Virus record (IMG/VR): IMGVR_UViG_3300020463_000054
Span: 1 to 35,418 of that record
DNA from: a virus
Length of the DNA stretch: 35,418 nucleotides
Direction: 5' to 3' (one strand)
Shown: piece after piece, positions 7,451-34,974 of the stretch
How positions within the stretch are numbered: position 1 is the stretch's first letter
Layout: each line of letters begins with the position of its first letter
Notes under the pieces: model-generated
Told to the model about the DNA's origin: nothing
What the model saw: only the letters and a program-made list of their open reading frames with translations
The model's database searches: none
Position numbers and translations under genes: made by a program

Positions 7451-7676
7451 TTTTTTCCACCAATTGTTTTAATAAGGATTTTATGTCAGACATATCTTCC
7501 TTCATTTCTTGTACGTCGTCTTTTACTCTTTCAAATTCTAAAGCTTTCTTTTTTCTTTCGGCTTTAAGAGCTCTTGCTTTTTCTATGCCAAGCAAATCCG
7601 TATTTAATATTGCATTTGTAGAAGGATCTCTAAAAAGCTTATCAGATCCTTCTACTTTCTTATATTCTTTTCTCAT
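7443..7676 (-). CDS. Small conserved coiled-coil protein
   Basis: A 77-residue protein. The N-terminus 'KVEGSDKLFRDPSTNAILN' is followed by a strongly charged helix of about 45 residues ('KARALKAERKKKALEFERVK', then 'MKEDMSDIKSLLKQLVEKNG') that should form a coiled coil. It shares one base with the end of the 1743-residue gene and overlaps the next gene by eight bases, which argues that it is translated. Small proteins with a 'L.RD..TnAIlN.D' start occur in T4-like marine phages. A virion or assembly role is likely but unproven. Confidence 0.55.
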   Translation of the reverse strand: MRKEYKKVEGSDKLFRDPSTNAILNTDLLGIEKARALKAERKKKALEFERVKDDVQEMKEDMSDIKSLLKQLVEKNG

Positions 7677-10600
7677 TAGACAGCCAATGCTATTACCCTT
7701 AAATCTTTGAACTGAGGTACTTTTGCATTGTTTGAAGATTTCATAACAATTTTTATAATAAATCTGTTAAACGGAACAGCCAATCCACCTGGTCCACCTA
7801 CTATATATTCATAGTCTCTAAATATAGTTGGATTTTCATCCGTTGGCAAGTTAGACTCTTTTACTATTTCTACCCAATTTGTTTCATCAAACGATGCATC
7901 ATCGCTAATTGCTTTATAATATACTTCAAAGTCGCAAACAGAAGGACGATTAGCTGCTAATATAATTTTTAATCCAACCGCACTAGCTGCCAATGTTACA
8001 GGTCTCGTAATGTGTTTGGATAGAGCCGTACCACCAGTCTTATCTGTTTCATTAATAAACTGAATTGGAGTATTAATATTGTTTACACTAGATCCAGCAG
8101 AATCAGCGTTATCAATTCTGTTATGAGTTACCCATAAGGAAGCTCTTTGCATGTCAAGAACAGGACTTACATTAGGAGAACTAGATGTCATATTTACTTG
8201 TATAGTAGCAGACTTCTCACCGGCCGGTAAATTAGTCACCTCTAATGCGTCATTAGCAATAACCCTTGGAGAGGAAAATATATTATTTTCTTTTAACAGC
8301 AATGCACTAAAAACTGTGTCTTGGCTATAAGGCGTTTCAGTGCCAGCATTTGATTTACCACTTACAAATTTACCACTTACATCGATTCTTGTAGATTGTG
8401 GTATGTTTGTTTCGATATATGGCAGTACGCTTTCTACTGAATAGTTTTGAGTATTATTAACTGCAAATCCTCCAATTGATACTGAAGAAGTTGCCGCAGA
8501 GTCTGCAGCAAATGTGATTGTATCGTTATCGGCACTATCAATTGTACGAGAACCTATAAGCGAAGTGCCTTTAATTCCAGCATACGTAGTGTTCGAATCA
8601 AATCCGCTAATGACAACTGCATCGCCAGCAAATAATCCATGATCGGCATGTGACATCACCATACGAGTTGAACTTTGTGTTGTTACTATCGGATCAGCTT
8701 CTAATAATCTAAGAGGAACACTAGCATTTCGTAAAATGGCTTGAGACGTTGCAGTGCTAAAGTTAGCGTTATACAATTTAAACATCATGTCCATTGTTTG
8801 GTCTGCTGTCCATGTTGTAGCATTTTGTGACTTAAATAAAGTTCCTAAAGTTGGTTGAGACGTAATACGCTGTTCAGTAGAACCTAAAATAAATTCTTCA
8901 GTCTTTGCAATGTAGACATTATAATTATCAGTTTCCGCTATTAACACTATAGCGTATTCTAAATAAGGACTTAAATAGACTGGCTCGTCAAATTCAAAAG
9001 CTGTTGGGGTGGCCGCATTAGTACTAGTTGTTACTTGAGCCGAAGGTTTAAATACTATAGACCCCGGAACAATGTCAGTAGCACTTGGAGAACCATTTAC
9101 CATAGGCCTAACTTGCAATTGCACCGGAATAGTATCATCTTTAGTTTGAAAGAAAATATCTACTTTACTTAAAAATACCCCATCTTGATCTGGTATAAAG
9201 AACGACTGAGCTAACGGATCTACTTGGCGAACAGTTCGTGGCGGAACAGTCTGAATTCCGTCAACAGTCGTTCTTCCGGTGGTTAAATTAACAACCGTTG
9301 ATTGTACTCTAGATCCCACACGCCGCTGACTAGATGTCGAATTGCTTGCCGTGCCTGTAACAATGTTACGTATACGAGTTGTTTGTATAGTTTGTTGCCG
9401 CGTTTCTAAAACTCCTGTAGAGGCAAATGCCGCAACACCAATTGAGGTTGCAGCTTCTTCATTATCTACAGATATATCAAGCAGCTTAATCTCTCTTAAG
9501 CCAGTTCTAAATACACCGTTTTGAATGAAGAATTCTCCTTCTACAACGCCTGCAGCATCTGTAAACAAAGAGGTAGCTCCGTCTGGATGTCCAGTGTTTC
9601 TATTATATCTGTTACCGACTTCATTATTAGTTGTAGCTATTCTAGTAAATGTATCAGACTTAACCCAATTAGATACATCTTGACCATCAAAGAATGGGAA
9701 TACTCTAGTATTGGGTTTCATACCCTGACATTTAAAGCTTACTCTACGAGATCGCATAAACGGTATTACTGCGACATCAATAACTCTGTTACCAACAACG
9801 CTTCGTATTGTAGAAAACGAATCTACTCTTGCCATAGCAGAGGTTGTAGTAGCTATGTTAGTCTGTACAGTATTAATTGTGTTAAACGAGAATCTCTGGT
9901 TATTATTAATAAGTGTATTCTGAGGCTGAGTTATTACTTCTTGTGAAAGTGAAGATCCTCCGGATCGACTTATAACTTGCGATCTAGATGAACCGATAGT
10001 CGAACCCGCCCAGTTCCATTGTGAGTTATTAAAAAGTTGAGCCTGACTACCAGAGAACGAATTAGAAGTGCCGCCGCCTACTACAACATCAGCAGCTTGC
10101 CTTGTTTCTCTCCACTCGTCAGAAGAAGGAGAAAGTTCCATTACACCCAAATTTGTTATAACTGCAAATGGATTTATATTTATGGATCCAGATACTTGAG
10201 GCTGATTAATATATTCGCTATGTGTAAATTTCTTATATATGTTATCGCCTTTTAAAATAGTATTAGTTGAAAGGTCTGAATCGTATATAAGTCGAATAGC
10301 TTCTTCGCTAAATGCTGGTCTTAAAATTGTATTTTGTGGATCAATAGAAGCTCTATATTCTATACTAGCAGTACTTGATCCCAGCTGATTTTTAAATCCA
10401 TCTACTAAGAAACCTGACTTTGTTCTATCATTTCCTGTAGAGTCAAATACTGCAAAGTTAGCTAATCCAGTTTCGATAAGCGATAACGCTGTAATATCAT
10501 ATAATGCATCAAGCTTTGAAGATATAGTTCCAATATCATCCATGTTAAATAGTTTAGTCTCGAACGGCGCCAAATTAATATCCGAATCACTTTTTGTATA

Positions 10601-12907
10601 GCTTTCTAATTTAGCGTCAGATAATTCTAAAACTTCGGGAGGAACGTTTGGAAACTGTGGGTCTAGAGCAGATGTACCAAGCAAGACTTTAATATTACCT
10701 GTTTCGTCAACTACTATTTTGTCATAACGCGGAAGATAATAATCAGCATCGGTCGTAATCAAATCTGTATTCGTTGGAAGTTCGTTAATACGAGCAGTAC
10801 CACCAGTAAAGTCTGAGTCGCCATCTGTTTTACGTGGTCTAAAATCTAACACATCGTGTAATGATATTTTAGATCCATCGTTTAGTGTATGAGCTGGAAT
10901 GTCTTCATAATTGACCTGACCTGTATATGAATTAACTGCAAAGAATTCGCCTGAAGCCCCGTGTGTGAAGAATCTAAATCTTGCAAACACATTCCCGCTC
11001 GGTGCAGCTTTATCGCCTTTTAGAATTAATCGTGCAGGAGAATACCAGTTATCTCTTTGACCGTTATCTACAATAAAATCATTTATTCTATCTGCGCCAT
11101 CAGAATCAGAATCACGTAAACGATCTAGCTTAAATAAATCTGGTTTTTGTAGACTTATAAATGCAGTACCGCTTCCGTCAGATTCTATAGCCCGTGTGAC
11201 AGTGGTTTCAACAAGAGTTTTAGTACGAACACTACCAGCAGATTTATTGACCTTTGCAATAATCTCAACATTAGAACTCGTCGGACCACCACTAATTGTT
11301 GCAGCCTGAGTACCGGCGCCAGTAATTGTTGGAGTAATAATAGCACCAGATGAATCAACCGATACGATCCATTCATTTACACTACCAAAGGTTTCACCCG
11401 TAGCAGTCAATGTTAAAGTAGCTGCGCCTGATGGATCAAGCGAAGCATTAAATCCTCGATACACTTCTAGTGATATATCTGATAATGTTTTAGGTCTACT
11501 ATTAGGTAATGGGAAAAATAAGTTATTACCAGCTACGTCTTTAAGAATAGCGCTACCGCCGTCCAATACTAAGTTAGCGTAATCAAACGAACTACCGCCA
11601 ATAGATTTTACATTCGCAAACGATTGGCCTGCGTTCATTACGACATCAAAGATATAAAATCTATAATATGATCCATCCTCTTCTACAGCACGAATACGAC
11701 ATGTACCAATGGTTGAACCACCATGGTTAACAGCGGAACGTAAGTTTCTATTTTGAAACACGTTAATATTTGGTAAACCTTTAAGATCTGTAACTGTAAT
11801 ATAGTTACCGTAGGATGCAGCTGCAACTTCATTGTTTTTAGAAATTGTGTCTCTGGCCTTAGGTACTCTAATTCTTGTTGGGAAAGTTTTCTCTACCCTA
11901 TAACCGTTTACATATGCAAGCCCAGAAGATATAACTGCAGCTAAATGAGTATTAGCTGAATCATTTTCATAGTTAACAAAGAAAGGTTTGACAAAGAAAT
12001 CACCATGAATATCTCTTGTACGAGTAGCTAATCGATCTTCAATCTTAGCATATTGATCTGAGCCTGTAACATGATCAAATACAACTCCTCTACGTATTCT
12101 ACAGAAGTAGACAAAGTTTTGATCAGAGTCAACGTCATCCTGATTAGTTAAAATCATTTTAATTCTATATCGATCAGCACCAGGAGCAGATGTATTTGGA
12201 GTAGCACCTTGGTTATCGTACAGAAGTTCAGAATCTGCAGCCGTAATAACCTCTTGTGTTACTAAAAATCCTACGGTCGCATCAGGTGTTTGATCGTATT
12301 TGCTAAGAAGAATAGACTGACGTTCTACAAATACAAAATGGCCTTGTGTAAAGAAATCACCACGTTCTACTGAAAAGCGTGTACCAAATCCAGTTGCAGG
12401 GTTTGCAGTTGTATTAGTGCTTTGAACTGTTAATGTAACACCTGAATTTGTACCAACAATATCTTCACTAGGCGACATAGCGTTTGGAGTAGAGAACGAA
12501 GAGGCTGACAACGTATCAACATAAGCGACATAAATTGTTGCAGGATCGCTTGCTGTTGCGGCAACAACTTCTAAAATTTTAGCTTTAAATGCAGAGTTTT
12601 GACCAGTAAATTCATCTCCAACAATAGTAGAAGTATCTGTTGGCAAGTTGTTTGTAGTTGTATCAAGCTTGATAAATTCATATCGAGTATTAATACTTGG
12701 TCCACCAGGATTTACTGATGAGCCTTCTTTAAATACATTCCGAGCAAATCTTTCAAGTTCTTTATGCGCAATAGTTTGCGATTGAGTTAACTCTCTCGCC
12801 TGCAGAGCGCGGCCAGAATTAAACAGTATCCTATGATAGTTATTACTGTCTCTATAATCGTCTTTATACGTATCCGCAAAGACTTTTTCCGTAAATTTTG
12901 TCGCCAT
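7676..12907 (-). CDS. DUF4815-domain giant virion protein
   Basis: At 1743 residues this is the largest protein in the window. The N-terminal 70 residues, including 'DTYKDDYRDSNNYHRILFNS' and 'ALQARELTQSQTIAHKELER', match the DUF4815 start seen in large structural proteins of marine T4-like phages. The remainder is mostly beta-rich. A C-terminal region around 'FLSKVDIFFQTKD' and 'YLEYAIVLIAETDNYNVYIA' looks like a jelly-roll or carbohydrate-binding-type domain. It follows gp8 directly, the place where T4 has its gp9/gp10 fibre-attachment genes, so a role in the baseplate periphery or fibre network is plausible. Homology to T4 gp10 is not claimed. Confidence 0.75.
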   Translation of the reverse strand: MATKFTEKVFADTYKDDYRDSNNYHRILFNSGRALQARELTQSQTIAHKELERFARNVFKEGSSVNPGGPSINTRYEFIKLDTTTNNLPTDTSTIVGDEFTGQNSAFKAKILEVVAATASDPATIYVAYVDTLSASSFSTPNAMSPSEDIVGTNSGVTLTVQSTNTTANPATGFGTRFSVERGDFFTQGHFVFVERQSILLSKYDQTPDATVGFLVTQEVITAADSELLYDNQGATPNTSAPGADRYRIKMILTNQDDVDSDQNFVYFCRIRRGVVFDHVTGSDQYAKIEDRLATRTRDIHGDFFVKPFFVNYENDSANTHLAAVISSGLAYVNGYRVEKTFPTRIRVPKARDTISKNNEVAAASYGNYITVTDLKGLPNINVFQNRNLRSAVNHGGSTIGTCRIRAVEEDGSYYRFYIFDVVMNAGQSFANVKSIGGSSFDYANLVLDGGSAILKDVAGNNLFFPLPNSRPKTLSDISLEVYRGFNASLDPSGAATLTLTATGETFGSVNEWIVSVDSSGAIITPTITGAGTQAATISGGPTSSNVEIIAKVNKSAGSVRTKTLVETTVTRAIESDGSGTAFISLQKPDLFKLDRLRDSDSDGADRINDFIVDNGQRDNWYSPARLILKGDKAAPSGNVFARFRFFTHGASGEFFAVNSYTGQVNYEDIPAHTLNDGSKISLHDVLDFRPRKTDGDSDFTGGTARINELPTNTDLITTDADYYLPRYDKIVVDETGNIKVLLGTSALDPQFPNVPPEVLELSDAKLESYTKSDSDINLAPFETKLFNMDDIGTISSKLDALYDITALSLIETGLANFAVFDSTGNDRTKSGFLVDGFKNQLGSSTASIEYRASIDPQNTILRPAFSEEAIRLIYDSDLSTNTILKGDNIYKKFTHSEYINQPQVSGSININPFAVITNLGVMELSPSSDEWRETRQAADVVVGGGTSNSFSGSQAQLFNNSQWNWAGSTIGSSRSQVISRSGGSSLSQEVITQPQNTLINNNQRFSFNTINTVQTNIATTTSAMARVDSFSTIRSVVGNRVIDVAVIPFMRSRRVSFKCQGMKPNTRVFPFFDGQDVSNWVKSDTFTRIATTNNEVGNRYNRNTGHPDGATSLFTDAAGVVEGEFFIQNGVFRTGLREIKLLDISVDNEEAATSIGVAAFASTGVLETRQQTIQTTRIRNIVTGTASNSTSSQRRVGSRVQSTVVNLTTGRTTVDGIQTVPPRTVRQVDPLAQSFFIPDQDGVFLSKVDIFFQTKDDTIPVQLQVRPMVNGSPSATDIVPGSIVFKPSAQVTTSTNAATPTAFEFDEPVYLSPYLEYAIVLIAETDNYNVYIAKTEEFILGSTEQRITSQPTLGTLFKSQNATTWTADQTMDMMFKLYNANFSTATSQAILRNASVPLRLLEADPIVTTQSSTRMVMSHADHGLFAGDAVVISGFDSNTTYAGIKGTSLIGSRTIDSADNDTITFAADSAATSSVSIGGFAVNNTQNYSVESVLPYIETNIPQSTRIDVSGKFVSGKSNAGTETPYSQDTVFSALLLKENNIFSSPRVIANDALEVTNLPAGEKSATIQVNMTSSSPNVSPVLDMQRASLWVTHNRIDNADSAGSSVNNINTPIQFINETDKTGGTALSKHITRPVTLAASAVGLKIILAANRPSVCDFEVYYKAISDDASFDETNWVEIVKESNLPTDENPTIFRDYEYIVGGPGGLAVPFNRFIIKIVMKSSNNAKVPQFKDLRVIALAV

Positions 12908-30951: not shown

Positions 30952-31536
30952 ATGAGTAATATATTTCAAAAGCTAGAGTTCGAAGCATTTCGAGCAGGCA
31001 TCACACCACGGTCAAAAGAGTCTATGAACTGGTTTCGCCAGAAGGCTCAGGCTATGGGCAGAGTAAATCGTAATGCGCTGATGAAAGAAGAACCGGTCGA
31101 ATTAAAGAGTAAAGGTATTGCAGGAAACATGTACATGTATTTCTACGATCCTAAGACAAAAGATAAGTTACCCTATTATGACAGCTTTCCATTGGTGGTT
31201 GTTGTAGGTCCTGCACCTGGAGGATTTGCCGGTTTAAATCTACATTATCTTCCTGCAACACTTCGCGCAAAATTACTTGATGCCCTTATGGATATTGCAA
31301 GTAATAAAAAGTTTGATGAAACAACAAAATTTCAAGTAACATATAATACTCTAAAACAAACGGCTTCGCTAAAACATTTTAAGCCGTGTTACAAACACTA
31401 TTTAAATTCTAATGTACGAAGTAGATTTGCATATGTCCCTCCACCCGAATGGGAGATTGCAACGTTTTTACCAACAGCCGATTTTCAGAAAGCTGGTAGA
31501 TCTAAAGTATACAAAGATTCTAGGAGTATGATTTAA
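30952..31536 (+). CDS. Conserved T4-like virion/DNA-packaging protein (DNA end protector candidate)
   Basis: A 194-residue protein. The N-terminus 'NIFQKLEFEAFRAGITPRSK' is helical; then come 'YDSFPLVVVVGPAPGGFAGL', 'NLHYLPATLRAKLLDALMDI' and 'HFKPCYKHYLNSNVRSRFAY'. This reads as a compact alpha/beta protein conserved in T4-like marine phages. In T4, gene 2 (DNA end protector, head-tail joining) lies next to gene 4, so gp2 is a candidate by position, but no T4 gp2 motif could be confirmed. No Shine-Dalgarno sequence is visible, and a late promoter box ends five bases before the ATG. The stop overlaps the next start by one base. Confidence 0.55.
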   Translation: MSNIFQKLEFEAFRAGITPRSKESMNWFRQKAQAMGRVNRNALMKEEPVELKSKGIAGNMYMYFYDPKTKDKLPYYDSFPLVVVVGPAPGGFAGLNLHYLPATLRAKLLDALMDIASNKKFDETTKFQVTYNTLKQTASLKHFKPCYKHYLNSNVRSRFAYVPPPEWEIATFLPTADFQKAGRSKVYKDSRSMI

Positions 31537-32135
31537 TGCCATTATCCGTTGACGATTTAAAAGGTGCAGTACGTAGTGGTCCAGCCAGAAGTAATATGTT
31601 TCAGGTTAACCTACCGGCGTTACCTGGACTGGCTCAGACAGATACTCGCGGTCTTAACCTTTTATGTAGAGACGTGCAATTACCTGGTAGACAAGTATTG
31701 TCGAACGAACGTATAATCGGAATGAAACAAGTAAAACAAGCATATGGTTATGCTGCTGAAGATGTTTCAATGACATTCTTAGTTACAAATGATTATGGGG
31801 TAAAATCATATTTTGAACATTGGCAGGAATTAGCGGCAAATCATATTACAAAAGAATTAAATTACCCAACCACGTACAATCGAGACGTAACTATACATCA
31901 GTTAAAGCACGGAATAGGATTTGACATACCAGGGTTCTTTGACCAATCATTTTCTTTTGGTCCTTTCAATATAAACCTTGATGCTGATTTATATTCTGAC
32001 GAACAGAAGATATATAGTTGTAAACTAGTAGACGCATTTTGTACAACGCTAAATGCAATACAATTAAATAATGATCCGAACGGATTAGTTGAACTGAATG
32101 TCCAGTTATCATATAAAGACTGGTTTAAAATTTAA
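31536..32135 (+). CDS. Tail-tube-family protein (gp19/gp54-like)
   Basis: A 199-residue protein with the tube-protein signature. It has 'RSNMFQVNLPALPG' near residue 19, 'LLCRDVQLPGRQVLSNERII' around 42-61, 'DVSMTFLVTNDYGVKSYFEH' around 77-96, and an end in a beta-rich 'LNVQLSYKDWFKI'. This is the T4 gp19 family fold. The main tube protein gp19 normally follows the sheath gene gp18, which is not here. Position beside gp4, gp26 and the tape measure fits better with a baseplate tube initiator such as gp54, itself a tube-fold relative. Finding a second copy next to a sheath gene elsewhere in the genome would settle this. It overlaps the previous gene by one base. Confidence 0.7.
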   Translation: MPLSVDDLKGAVRSGPARSNMFQVNLPALPGLAQTDTRGLNLLCRDVQLPGRQVLSNERIIGMKQVKQAYGYAAEDVSMTFLVTNDYGVKSYFEHWQELAANHITKELNYPTTYNRDVTIHQLKHGIGFDIPGFFDQSFSFGPFNINLDADLYSDEQKIYSCKLVDAFCTTLNAIQLNNDPNGLVELNVQLSYKDWFKI

Positions 32136-32152: not shown

Positions 32153-32857
32153 ATGGCTTTACCAAAAATTAATAGTGCGCCCAAATATGAGATCACTATT
32201 CCTTCTACACAAAAAACGGTAAGATATAGACCGTATCTCGTAAAAGAAGAAAAAATATTAATGATGGCTATGGAAACGCAAGATCAAAAACAAGCCCTTG
32301 CTGCTATAGTTGATACAATTGAATCATGTGTTGAAGAACCAATTGAAAGAAATAGACTAACTACATTTGATGTTGAATATCTTTTTACACAAATTCGTTC
32401 AAAGTCGGTCGGTGAGACTGCTAAAATTGGAATGTCATGTCAGGAATGTGAAACTACAAATGAAATTAGTGTACCGCTAACTGACGTTAACGTAAAAAAT
32501 TTAGAAAATCAGGTTGATACAATTGAATTAACTCCAGAAATTAAGTTAAAAATGAAATGGCCGTCATTTAGTGATATTATTATTACAGAAGATATGGGTA
32601 CAGGTACAGAACAAACATTTAAATTAATTGGGCATTGTATTGATTCAGTACAAACACCAACAGAAAATATAAGACTGTCTGATGAGACTGAGCAAGAAGT
32701 ACAAGAATTTATTGAATCATTAAGTTCAGCACAATTTAATATGATTCGTGAACATGTAGATAAAATTCCAAGAATGGAATATGATATAGAATTTACATGT
32801 CAAAAATGTAATGCAGAGAATAAGGTAACGTTGTCGGGAATTAGCGATTTTTTTTAA
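32153..32857 (+). CDS. 26: gp26-like hub/tail assembly chaperone protein (zero-frame product)
   Basis: A 234-residue protein (T4 gp26 has 208). It starts 'MALPKINSAPKYEITIPSTQ' and continues 'VRYRPYLVKEEKILMMAMET', the conserved start of the T4 gp26 baseplate family. Two Cys pairs, C96/C99 in 'CQEC' and C216/C219 in 'CQKC', suggest a zinc site. In T4, gp26 is required for hub assembly with gp51, gp27, gp28 and gp29. Here it lies one short frame before the tape measure, the position of tail assembly chaperone genes in other tailed phages. The last codons 'gat ttt ttt taa' run through eight T's, a candidate -1 slip site that would add 64 residues. Confidence 0.88.
   Translation: MALPKINSAPKYEITIPSTQKTVRYRPYLVKEEKILMMAMETQDQKQALAAIVDTIESCVEEPIERNRLTTFDVEYLFTQIRSKSVGETAKIGMSCQECETTNEISVPLTDVNVKNLENQVDTIELTPEIKLKMKWPSFSDIIITEDMGTGTEQTFKLIGHCIDSVQTPTENIRLSDETEQEVQEFIESLSSAQFNMIREHVDKIPRMEYDIEFTCQKCNAENKVTLSGISDFF
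32848..32855 (+). promoter_or_regulatory. Candidate -1 programmed ribosomal frameshift site
   Basis: Eight T's include the heptamer T TTT TTT in the gp26 frame (X XXY YYZ with all T), immediately before the gp26 stop TAA at 32855. Both tRNAs could re-pair perfectly one base back. In the -1 frame, a TAG at 32842-32844 lies just upstream and the frame is open from 32845 to 33045. The switch can therefore only take place at this T run. A six-base spacer and a strong stem follow. Efficiency is unknown. Confidence 0.75.
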
Positions 32858-33048
32858 TAGCCCTTTCCCATGAAAGTTTAGTTAACTATTATAAAACTAA
32901 CTTTGCATTAATGCAACATCACCATTACTCTCTCACTGAGATAGAAGCAATGATGCCATGGGAAAGGGAGATTTACCTGACGTTATTGATTCAACATATA
33001 AAAGAAGAAAATGATAGAATGAAAGAGCAACAAACCAAGAGCAGATAA
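32854..33048 (+). CDS. gp51-like -1 frame extension of gp26 (frameshift product C-terminus)
   Basis: The open -1 frame encodes 64 residues if entered by slippage at the T run. It begins 'LIALSHESLVNYYKTNFALM', continues 'QHHHYSLTEIEAMMPWEREI' and ends 'LTLLIQHIKEENDRMKEQQ' plus four residues. The full fusion would be about 298 residues. The helix pair with 'SLTEIEAMMPWEREIY' resembles the short domains of phage tail assembly chaperone T parts. The only internal ATG, at 32911, lacks a ribosome site and would give 45 residues. The stop TAA at 33046-33048 directly abuts the tape-measure ATG. It lies where T4 has gene 51, but homology to gp51 is not shown. Confidence 0.7.
   Translation, partial: LIALSHESLVNYYKTNFALMQHHHYSLTEIEAMMPWEREIYLTLLIQHIKEENDRMKEQQTKSR
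32861..32968 (+). repeat. 12-bp inverted repeat: frameshift-stimulating RNA structure candidate
   Basis: CCCTTTCCCATG at 32861-32872 is perfectly complementary to CATGGGAAAGGG at 32957-32968. The first arm starts six bases after the slippery heptamer. The 84-base loop itself holds a hairpin (32873-32883 with 32895-32904, ten pairs with one bulged T) that starts directly where the outer stem ends. It also holds a 14-base perfect palindrome, TTGCATTAATGCAA, at 32903-32916. The whole would fold as a multibranched RNA. Seven of the 12 outer pairs are G-C, strong for this AT-rich genome. Confidence 0.7.
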
Positions 33049-34974
33049 ATGGCACAGCTAAGCGACATAATCAAAACTTTAAACCAAAATCAAGAGTCTC
33101 AGGAAGAAACAACTGATGCTGTTAATGAGCTGTCTAGTCTTTTTCGTAAAAAGTTTCTTGCCGAAGAACGTGGCGGTTTAGATAGACTAGAAAGACAAAG
33201 AGAAAGTGGTCGCGGCAGAGGAGGAGGCTTAGGTCTTGGCATTTCTACTCTTAACATACCAGGATTAACCACCTTAAATGGTTTTATTGCACTCATTGGA
33301 AATATTATTAAAAAAATTGTGGCTACTGTAGCAGCGGTAGCAGCAGGTGCAGCCGCATTAGCTGCAGCATTTGCGGGTCTTAGAGGTTGGGAATTGCCAC
33401 TTCTTGAAAAATTAAAAAATATTAGATTGGATTTAAGAAGGCTAATACCTGGTTCTGTTAGCAAGTCTATAACTAAAGCTATGCTAAATTTAAGAGCATC
33501 TATTTTAAGATCCTTTGGTATTAATCCAAAAATTCCCACTGAGTTTGATCCAGAAACAAAAAAGAATATGCAAATTAAAATGACACCTGCAAAAATAATA
33601 TCAGATGTCTATAATAAATTAACTACTAGAATATTAAAATCTTTTGGAATTGGTGCTGATGGCAAACTGATTACTGTTCAAGGAAAGGATGGTAAATTTA
33701 AAACAAATATAATTGGTAGACTTACAATTCAAACAAGAAGTTTCTTCAGACCATTTGTTAATTTAGGTAAAGGCTTAACTAAATTTTTTACTGGACCATT
33801 TTTTCAAACTATTAAAAACACATTAGGTACGGGTGTTGGTGGTATTTTAAAGATGGTTAATAGAATACTATGGCCAATTGGATTTTTAGTCTCTTTATAT
33901 GATGGCGTAACCGCTTATATTAAGTCAGATGCAGATGGATTTATTGCAAAATTAGGTGTTGGTATCGGCGCATTTTTTGGATCGTTTATTGGTGCACCTT
34001 TTGATTTAATGAAAAAGGGAATTAGTTGGATCATAAAAAAATTCTTTAATGTTGAAGTAGATAAGGATGGGAATGCATTACCCGGACAAGGATTAGCTGG
34101 TTGGGCAGTTACTGCACTTAATTCATTTTCATTTGAAAAAATTATTAATGGAGTTATATCTGGACTATATCAATTTGTCCAAGATGGCGTAGATTTTGTA
34201 ATTGATTTCTTTACCGATCCAGCTTTTCGTAAAGAGCAGCTTGCAAAGTTAACAGCACTGGTTACAGGACCAGAAGGTATAATTCAAAAAACTAAAGATT
34301 TTTTTAAGAACATATTTGATTTCTTACCAAGTGCACAAGGTATTAAAGACGCATTATATAATCTTTTACCTGATTGGATGAGAACAGATGCAGATGAAAT
34401 TAGGGAAAAACTTAGAGCCCAAACAAATAGAAGACAAAATCAAGAAAATATTTTAAGACAGGCTTATGGAATTCCACAAGGTGGGGAGATTGATTTTAGT
34501 AGTTTTGATGTATCAAAAATTCTCGGAAATGGTATGTTTGGTGATTCAGGTTATAGAAAAAGTGAAGTTCGACTAGCGATCGGAAGACAAGCTAATGCAG
34601 CTAAGCAAATGGAAGATCTTGCACAGGAATTAAAGGAACTTACTGGATTAAATTTAGGTGGTAAGACAAGTAGTAGAATATCTAAAAAGGTTGGATCATT
34701 AGTTAGGATTCATCCAAACGAATTAGTTGTTCCATTAGAAAAAACTGGTGAAGGTCGTGCTCTTAAAAAATTAGATAAGATATTAAATGCGTCTAATGCT
34801 GAATTACAAATGGCACAAGCACAAAATAATAATTACAGTACTACAAATATGGCGCCGATAATCATTAACAACGTTGATAATAGTAACGTAAATAATTCAC
34901 AATCAGATCGCAGAACGTATGTAGCCACCGGTGGTGCCACCGATGGCTTTAATTTAAATCAGACTGTACAGTAG
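33049..34974 (+). CDS. Tail tape measure / hub protein (gp29-like position)
   Basis: A 641-residue protein. A polar helical N-terminus ('LSDIIKTLNQNQESQEETTD') is followed by a basic Gly/Arg stretch. A long hydrophobic segment lies at about 77-110 ('ALIGNIIKKIVATVAAVAAG') and a second at about 270-345 ('RILWPIGFLVSLYDG', 'LGVGIGAFFGSFIGAPF'). The C-terminal region has 'GSLVRIHPNELVVPLEK', seen at the end of many tape measures, and ends in an Asn-rich tail. Such proteins set tail length and pass into the host membrane on ejection. T4 gp29 (590 residues) has this job and also follows the gp26/gp51 genes. There is no strong ribosome site; the ATG abuts the preceding stop, so coupled translation is likely. 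Confidence 0.75.
   Translation: MAQLSDIIKTLNQNQESQEETTDAVNELSSLFRKKFLAEERGGLDRLERQRESGRGRGGGLGLGISTLNIPGLTTLNGFIALIGNIIKKIVATVAAVAAGAAALAAAFAGLRGWELPLLEKLKNIRLDLRRLIPGSVSKSITKAMLNLRASILRSFGINPKIPTEFDPETKKNMQIKMTPAKIISDVYNKLTTRILKSFGIGADGKLITVQGKDGKFKTNIIGRLTIQTRSFFRPFVNLGKGLTKFFTGPFFQTIKNTLGTGVGGILKMVNRILWPIGFLVSLYDGVTAYIKSDADGFIAKLGVGIGAFFGSFIGAPFDLMKKGISWIIKKFFNVEVDKDGNALPGQGLAGWAVTALNSFSFEKIINGVISGLYQFVQDGVDFVIDFFTDPAFRKEQLAKLTALVTGPEGIIQKTKDFFKNIFDFLPSAQGIKDALYNLLPDWMRTDADEIREKLRAQTNRRQNQENILRQAYGIPQGGEIDFSSFDVSKILGNGMFGDSGYRKSEVRLAIGRQANAAKQMEDLAQELKELTGLNLGGKTSSRISKKVGSLVRIHPNELVVPLEKTGEGRALKKLDKILNASNAELQMAQAQNNNYSTTNMAPIIINNVDNSNVNNSQSDRRTYVATGGATDGFNLNQTVQ

Follow-up and report, generated by a model that had tools for sequence, protein, structure and literature searches.

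In phage lambda (G and GT) and in P2 (E and E+E'), the tail assembly chaperone gene gives two products, the longer being a low-abundance fusion that arises by a -1 frameshift at a heptameric slip site late in the gene; the gene itself lies between those for the tail tube and the tape measure. The lambda slip site is G_GGA_AAG. RNA structure 5-9 nucleotides (nt) 3' of the slip site is common, but not obligatory, for programmed -1 frameshifting, and in the Escherichia coli dnaX-type signal a Shine-Dalgarno-like tract about 10 nt upstream is combined with a heptamer and a stem 5-6 nt downstream. For T4-like phages, the tail assembly chaperones were reportedly identified by Vladimirov, Gautam and Davidson in 2022 (Virology 566:9-15). 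Here we describe the junction between gp26 and a gp51-type extension in the virus record IMGVR_UViG_3300020463_000054; the window is this whole stretch of 35,418 bases, which carries the baseplate region of a marine T4-like phage. We put the probability at about 0.9 that a programmed -1 ribosomal frameshift at this junction yields gp26 together with a gp26-gp51 fusion, as a G/GT-like pair of tail chaperones.

Two papers cite Vladimirov et al. 2022 on this subject. One treats poly-T slippery sequences as a known feature of TAC-N genes in T4-like phages (PMC12846349), and the other says that some T4-like phages, instead of frameshifting, have one short chaperone gene and one that is long and fused (PMC10885494); both descriptions fit our results on the window and on T4 gp26/gp51. 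The original prediction, made from the letters of the window, regarded such a pair in T4-like phages as undescribed, a view that these citations overturn: judged by them, the frameshift is of the published kind and the window phage is an additional member. An earlier paper (PMC5009743, 2016) still lists T4 as the exception to G-T frameshifting.

The elements at the junction are the following.

32153 to 32857, plus strand: gp26, putative short tail assembly chaperone (G-like, TAC-N), 234 amino acids (aa); matches PF12322 T4_baseplate (E 8e-62) and PHROG 150 (E 4e-63).
32842 to 32844, plus strand: stop TAG of the -1 frame, three bases 5' of the T run; direct reading.
32848 to 32854, plus strand: slippery heptamer T_TTT_TTT; conserved in relatives as given below.
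32855 to 32857, plus strand: zero-frame stop TAA; direct reading.
32854 to 33048, plus strand: -1 frame extension (gp51 C-terminal domain, putatively T-like), 64 codons and a stop; matches PHROG 634 'baseplate hub assembly catalyst' (gp51), E 8e-31.

Read directly, the 3' end of gp26 is ATT AGC GAT TTT TTT TAA TAG, with a run of eight T (32848-32855). The junction is as it had been predicted: the heptamer ends with the last sense codon of gp26 (32852-32854), and the -1 frame, closed by the TAG upstream, is open from 32854 for 64 codons to the TAA at 33046-33048. The claim that this frame has no ribosome site of its own also holds, as its first ATG, GTG or TTG is the ATG at 32911 (codon 20), which is not preceded by a Shine-Dalgarno sequence. 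The computed products, gp26 of 234 aa and 26.8 kDa and a fusion of 298 aa and 34.6 kDa, are heavier than the predicted masses of about 26 and 33 kDa. As in lambda and P2 the slip site is a heptamer, but T_TTT_TTN differs from that of lambda, and the family searches used showed no sequence similarity of these gp26/gp51-type proteins to lambda G/T.

We propose that most ribosomes would stop at the TAA at 32855 and release gp26, while a minority, with peptidyl- and aminoacyl-tRNA-Phe on T_TTT_TTT, would slip back by one base and read 64 more codons to give the gp26-gp51 fusion. A 12 base pair (bp) stem would probably help the slip, as would a Shine-Dalgarno-like tract upstream in most relatives. 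On the lambda model, gp26 (as G) might coat the tape measure protein encoded just downstream, and the fusion (as GT, or TAC-NC) might recruit tail tube subunits.

The evidence comes mainly from relatives, collected by IMG/VR searches and from annotated phages: 238 loci with an adjoining gp26, reduced to 157 non-redundant relatives by removing sequences more than 90% identical. T_TTT_TTN in register, with the gp51 frame at -1, was found in 238 of the 238 loci, so that the alignment proposed with the original prediction came out in its favour, and the heptamer begins at the third codon position in all 157 non-redundant relatives. Elsewhere in gp26, an in-frame TTTTTTN occurs at only 16 of 30,706 codon positions; a chance T run is ruled out by this rate together with the conservation and the fixed register. 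The last codon of the heptamer is TTC in 68, TTT in 53, TTA in 31 and TTG in 5 of the 157, and the replacement of the second Phe codon by Leu TTA or TTG in 36 of them indicates that it is the bases, not the residues, that are conserved. The codon before the heptamer ends in T throughout (157/157: 58 GAT, 49 AGT, 41 AAT, 9 others); compared with synonymous usage in genes of the same phage, log10 p is -36, a value that ignores relatedness. NNT TTT TTN is present near the end of gp26 in Phage C48C1, P-SSM2, S-CAM1, Mosig, Melnitz, BUCT-ZZ01, S-CRM01, ValKK3, Aeh1, phiM7, RL2RES and LPCS28, with 0-2 codons between the heptamer and the gp26 stop (8 in Mosig), and the gp51 domain continues in their -1 frame, typically as FF[RL]IxLxHxSLxxYYKxNF. 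The extension is conserved in Kyanoviridae, Schizotequatrovirus, Cinqassovirus, Emdodecavirus and Pootjesviridae. The heptamer, its register, the conserved -1 frame, the missing start, the homology and a covarying stem are all features of the sequence; production of the fusion, its amount, the part played by the stem and the chaperone function are inferred.

The small frame might instead be a separate gp51 gene, translated by coupled reinitiation at the gp26 stop (through a UAAUG-type overlap, which likewise places it at -1) or by internal initiation. Several records annotate it in this way (ValKK3, S-CRM01, RL2RES), and in 18 of the 157 relatives a start does overlap the gp26 stop, which would permit reinitiation there; the heptamer, which is universal, is kept even alongside the overlapping ATG. 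The other 139 relatives have no ATG within 10 codons past the slip site, yet the -1 residues immediately after it are conserved in these relatives too, and the -1 frame is most variable there at third codon positions, as expected of coding sequence. In the window, the first 19 codons of the extension hold no ATG, GTG or TTG, and reinitiation or an internal start is rejected there on this ground; translation from the first ATG would give 45 aa that lack the conserved LSHxSLxNYYKTNFA part. In T4, moreover, a gp26-type domain and this domain form a single in-frame fusion. We thus consider a separate gp51 gene very improbable. Seven public records either shorten the extension to a truncated gene with an internal start, list gp51 as a gene apart or leave the frame unannotated, and none of the public records examined marks it as a frameshift product.

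A -1 product could also arise if RNA polymerase slipped on the T run and inserted one U, and a run of eight T is found in the window and in 35 of the 157 relatives. In 104 of them, however, the run is just six T, broken by C, A or G, and transcriptional slippage is rejected as a general mechanism on these grounds. The codon register kept in 157/157 would not be needed for slippage of this kind, and a conserved stem 6 nt 3' of the heptamer fits ribosomal slippage; of the explanations weighed here, polymerase slippage is the one to which we give the least credence.

Both the frameshift and the assignment of gp26 as G and of the gp51 domain as T, made in the original prediction, have support from conservation and register, from homology and gene order, and from the predicted fold. 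The PHROG 150 (gp26) profile itself runs on into the extension (E 8e-7). PF12322 matches both T4 gp26 (E 9e-64) and, over residues 1-201, T4 gp51 (E 4e-52); comparison of profiles from gp26-type and gp51-type alignments gave 98.7%, and the extension compared with the C-terminus of T4-type gp51 gave 96.6% (hhalign). Judged from these matches, T4 gp51 is a gp26-type domain and an extension domain fused in one frame, so that T4 would pair a G-type gene with one of GT type. The C-terminal domain of T4 gp51 is the same as the extension in the window, but within T4 gp51 this domain follows a gp26-type domain in a single frame, whereas in the window the extension is reached at -1 of gp26. It had been stated that gp26 and gp51 are separate genes in T4; separate they are, and on opposite strands, but they are not simply the two halves of the fusion. 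The T run was found in neither T4 gene 26 nor gene 51.

PMC3037559 (Sullivan et al. 2010) describes cyanophage gp51 as lacking some 200 residues at its N-terminus and states that Aeh1 has no gp51. Our comparison indicates that cyanophage gp51 is the -1 extension of gp26 and not a separate gene, and that the extension is present in Aeromonas phage Aeh1 (locus L010:3711-3881), in the -1 frame after T_TTT_TTC. This would explain why a near-universal T4-like gene seemed 200 residues short in cyanophages, and why it has been annotated inconsistently or not at all: it is a frameshift extension of gp26, not a gene. The arrangement links two T4 hub-assembly factors to the lambda G/GT chaperone system and points to a switch between a frameshifted gene and a pair of genes; the paper of Vladimirov et al. 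reportedly covers at least part of the link between gp26/gp51 and the chaperones.

A sequence search found no credible match of gp26 to solved structures. The gp26 model has a mean predicted local distance difference test (pLDDT) score of 87.5, and its residues 1-95 matched 3FGX with Z 8.2 and the HK97 tail assembly chaperone 2OB9 with Z 7.0, the next match being at 2.6. The predicted fold is supportive of the chaperone identity, but not decisive.

Downstream of the heptamer, a feature overlooked in the original prediction is a long-range RNA stem formed by two arms.

32861 to 32872, plus strand: 5' arm of the stem, CCCUUUCCCAUG; a perfect 12 bp with 32957-32968, supported by the fold z and by covariation.
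32957 to 32968, plus strand: 3' arm of the stem, CAUGGGAAAGGG; inside the codons of the conserved PWERE motif.

Folding of 32840-33000 gave -39.3 kcal/mol (z -4.4), with the perfect 12-bp stem closing a loop of 84 nt. The stem starts 6 nt after the heptamer, within the 5-9 nt typical for -1 frameshift structures. Conservation was assessed in 151 gap-free relatives over 171 nt, where this stem is the best paired among all 12-bp helices. Standard pairing is 77.5%, against 74.4 +/- 0.3% after shuffling synonymous codons among the relatives (13 columns, z 11), and besides versions of this stem no helix in the shuffle scan rose above z 3.0; no helix within the 84-nt loop stood out. At columns 14/119 and 17/116 (0-based from the heptamer), each of them a third codon position, sister pairs show joint changes (p 5e-8 and 6e-7), and no other third position tested matched as well as the partner column. 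The covariation score in 73 sequences is 0.181 against 0.119 +/- 0.008, a value reached by 0 of 500 column shuffles, and with synonymous-codon shuffling the mean stem probability falls from 0.64 to 0.47 +/- 0.02 and the mean minimum free energy changes from -29.6 to -23.3 +/- 0.3. Kinship is only partly controlled in these tests, best in the sister-pair test. The stem probably stimulates the slip. Unlike lambda and P2 in our comparison, the window has a covarying stem bridging an 84-nt loop, and the dnaX-type signal, built from the same three parts, differs in that the stem here is long-range and the upstream tract weak.

Several results weigh against the reading as a whole or in part. In Ackermannviridae relatives the -1 arrangement is present although the heptamer is missing. 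2OB9, while at the top of the Foldseek ranking of PDB entries, has an E of 0.29, and the Z of 7.0 and 8.2 for 2OB9 and 3FGX are within the range that the tool calls common. For the stem, RNAalifold gave no consensus structure for the 73 sequences, which the length of the loop and differences between lineages probably explain, and in 43 of the 151 relatives fewer than 10 of its 12 base pairs can form. Since both arms lie within conserved codons, those of the PWERE and LSH motifs, the stem might be a by-product of these codons that gives no stimulation to an otherwise real frameshift. Shuffles that preserve the protein nevertheless lower both pairing (z about 11) and stem probability, and the third positions of the two arms covary. 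The stem-poor phages are, in addition, richer in local hairpins of at least 7 bp (13/43 versus 4/108 of the other relatives, p 2e-5). A by-product of codon conservation is therefore, in our estimate, unlikely, though clearly less so than a separate gp51 gene, and we retain the stem as a candidate stimulator of the frameshift.

The loci without the heptamer are those of PhaxI and Kamild (Ackermannviridae; L013:3780-3990 and L014:3770-3960) and of Vibrio phage K469 (L015:3690-3910), where a gp51-like -1 frame follows a gp26 that ends in GAR ATT TTC ATT TAA or CTT TTT GCG TAA and has no T6 heptamer. Kamild and K469 have UAAUG at the overlap, and PhaxI has no ATG there; these phages could use a U_UUY tetramer slip or reinitiation.

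In several cultured cyanophages, local hairpins begin about 4-5 nt after the heptamer (S-SSM7, 12 bp; P-SSM2 and S-CAM7, 11 bp; ACG-2014f, 10 bp); in some others (Syn19, P-RSM4, S-RIM8 and ACG-2014d) neither the stem nor a local hairpin is clear. A group of eight loci with T_TTT_TTA has a local hairpin of 8-9 bp, the arms of which vary together (GGCUCUC/GAGAGCC, GACUUUC/GAAAGUC, GACUAUC/GAUAGUC). Upstream, Shine-Dalgarno-like 4-mers, mostly 12-15 nt 5' of the heptamer, are present in 80% of relatives, against 54 +/- 3% on synonymous resampling; the window phage has a weak version at this position.

32836 to 32839, plus strand: GGGA at the position of the Shine-Dalgarno-like tract conserved in relatives; weak in this phage.

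We lean somewhat towards the view that the T4 superfamily shares an undescribed three-part recoding signal that sets the ratio of the tail chaperones: T_TTT_TTN, with a Shine-Dalgarno-like tract upstream of it and an RNA structure downstream. In the window lineage, Mosig and Melnitz the structure would be the long-range stem, double-coded in the PWERE motif; in P-SSM2, S-SSM7, ACG-2014f and S-CAM7 it would be a local hairpin specific to the lineage. As the 3' arm of the long-range stem lies inside the extension, only shifting ribosomes would reach and melt it. A search of open-access papers found no description of the stem, and a limited literature search no report of the local hairpins or the upstream tract; the RNA signal (stem and hairpins) may thus be the part that is new, and the covarying stem is a concrete candidate for a control element in abundant marine phages.

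The genes on either side of the junction are as follows.

31536 to 32135, plus strand: tail tube-family protein, upstream neighbour of gp26; PHROG 45 'tail tube', E 8e-32.
33049 to 34974, plus strand: probable tail tape measure protein, 641 aa; PHROG 28 'tail length tape measure', E 5e-8, and adjacency.

The order in the window is therefore PHROG 45 (tail tube), 150 (gp26), 634 (extension) and 28 (tape measure, a weak match), and matches the order of tail tube, chaperone and tape measure around lambda G/GT. The ATG of the tape measure gene abuts the TAA of the extension (TAAATG, 33046-33051), while several relatives have these two frames overlapping; translation of the tape measure may be coupled to that of the frameshifted product. 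Elsewhere in the window, the baseplate region encodes on the minus strand (7676-12907) a protein of 1743 aa that matches PHROG 358 (unknown function) with E 0.
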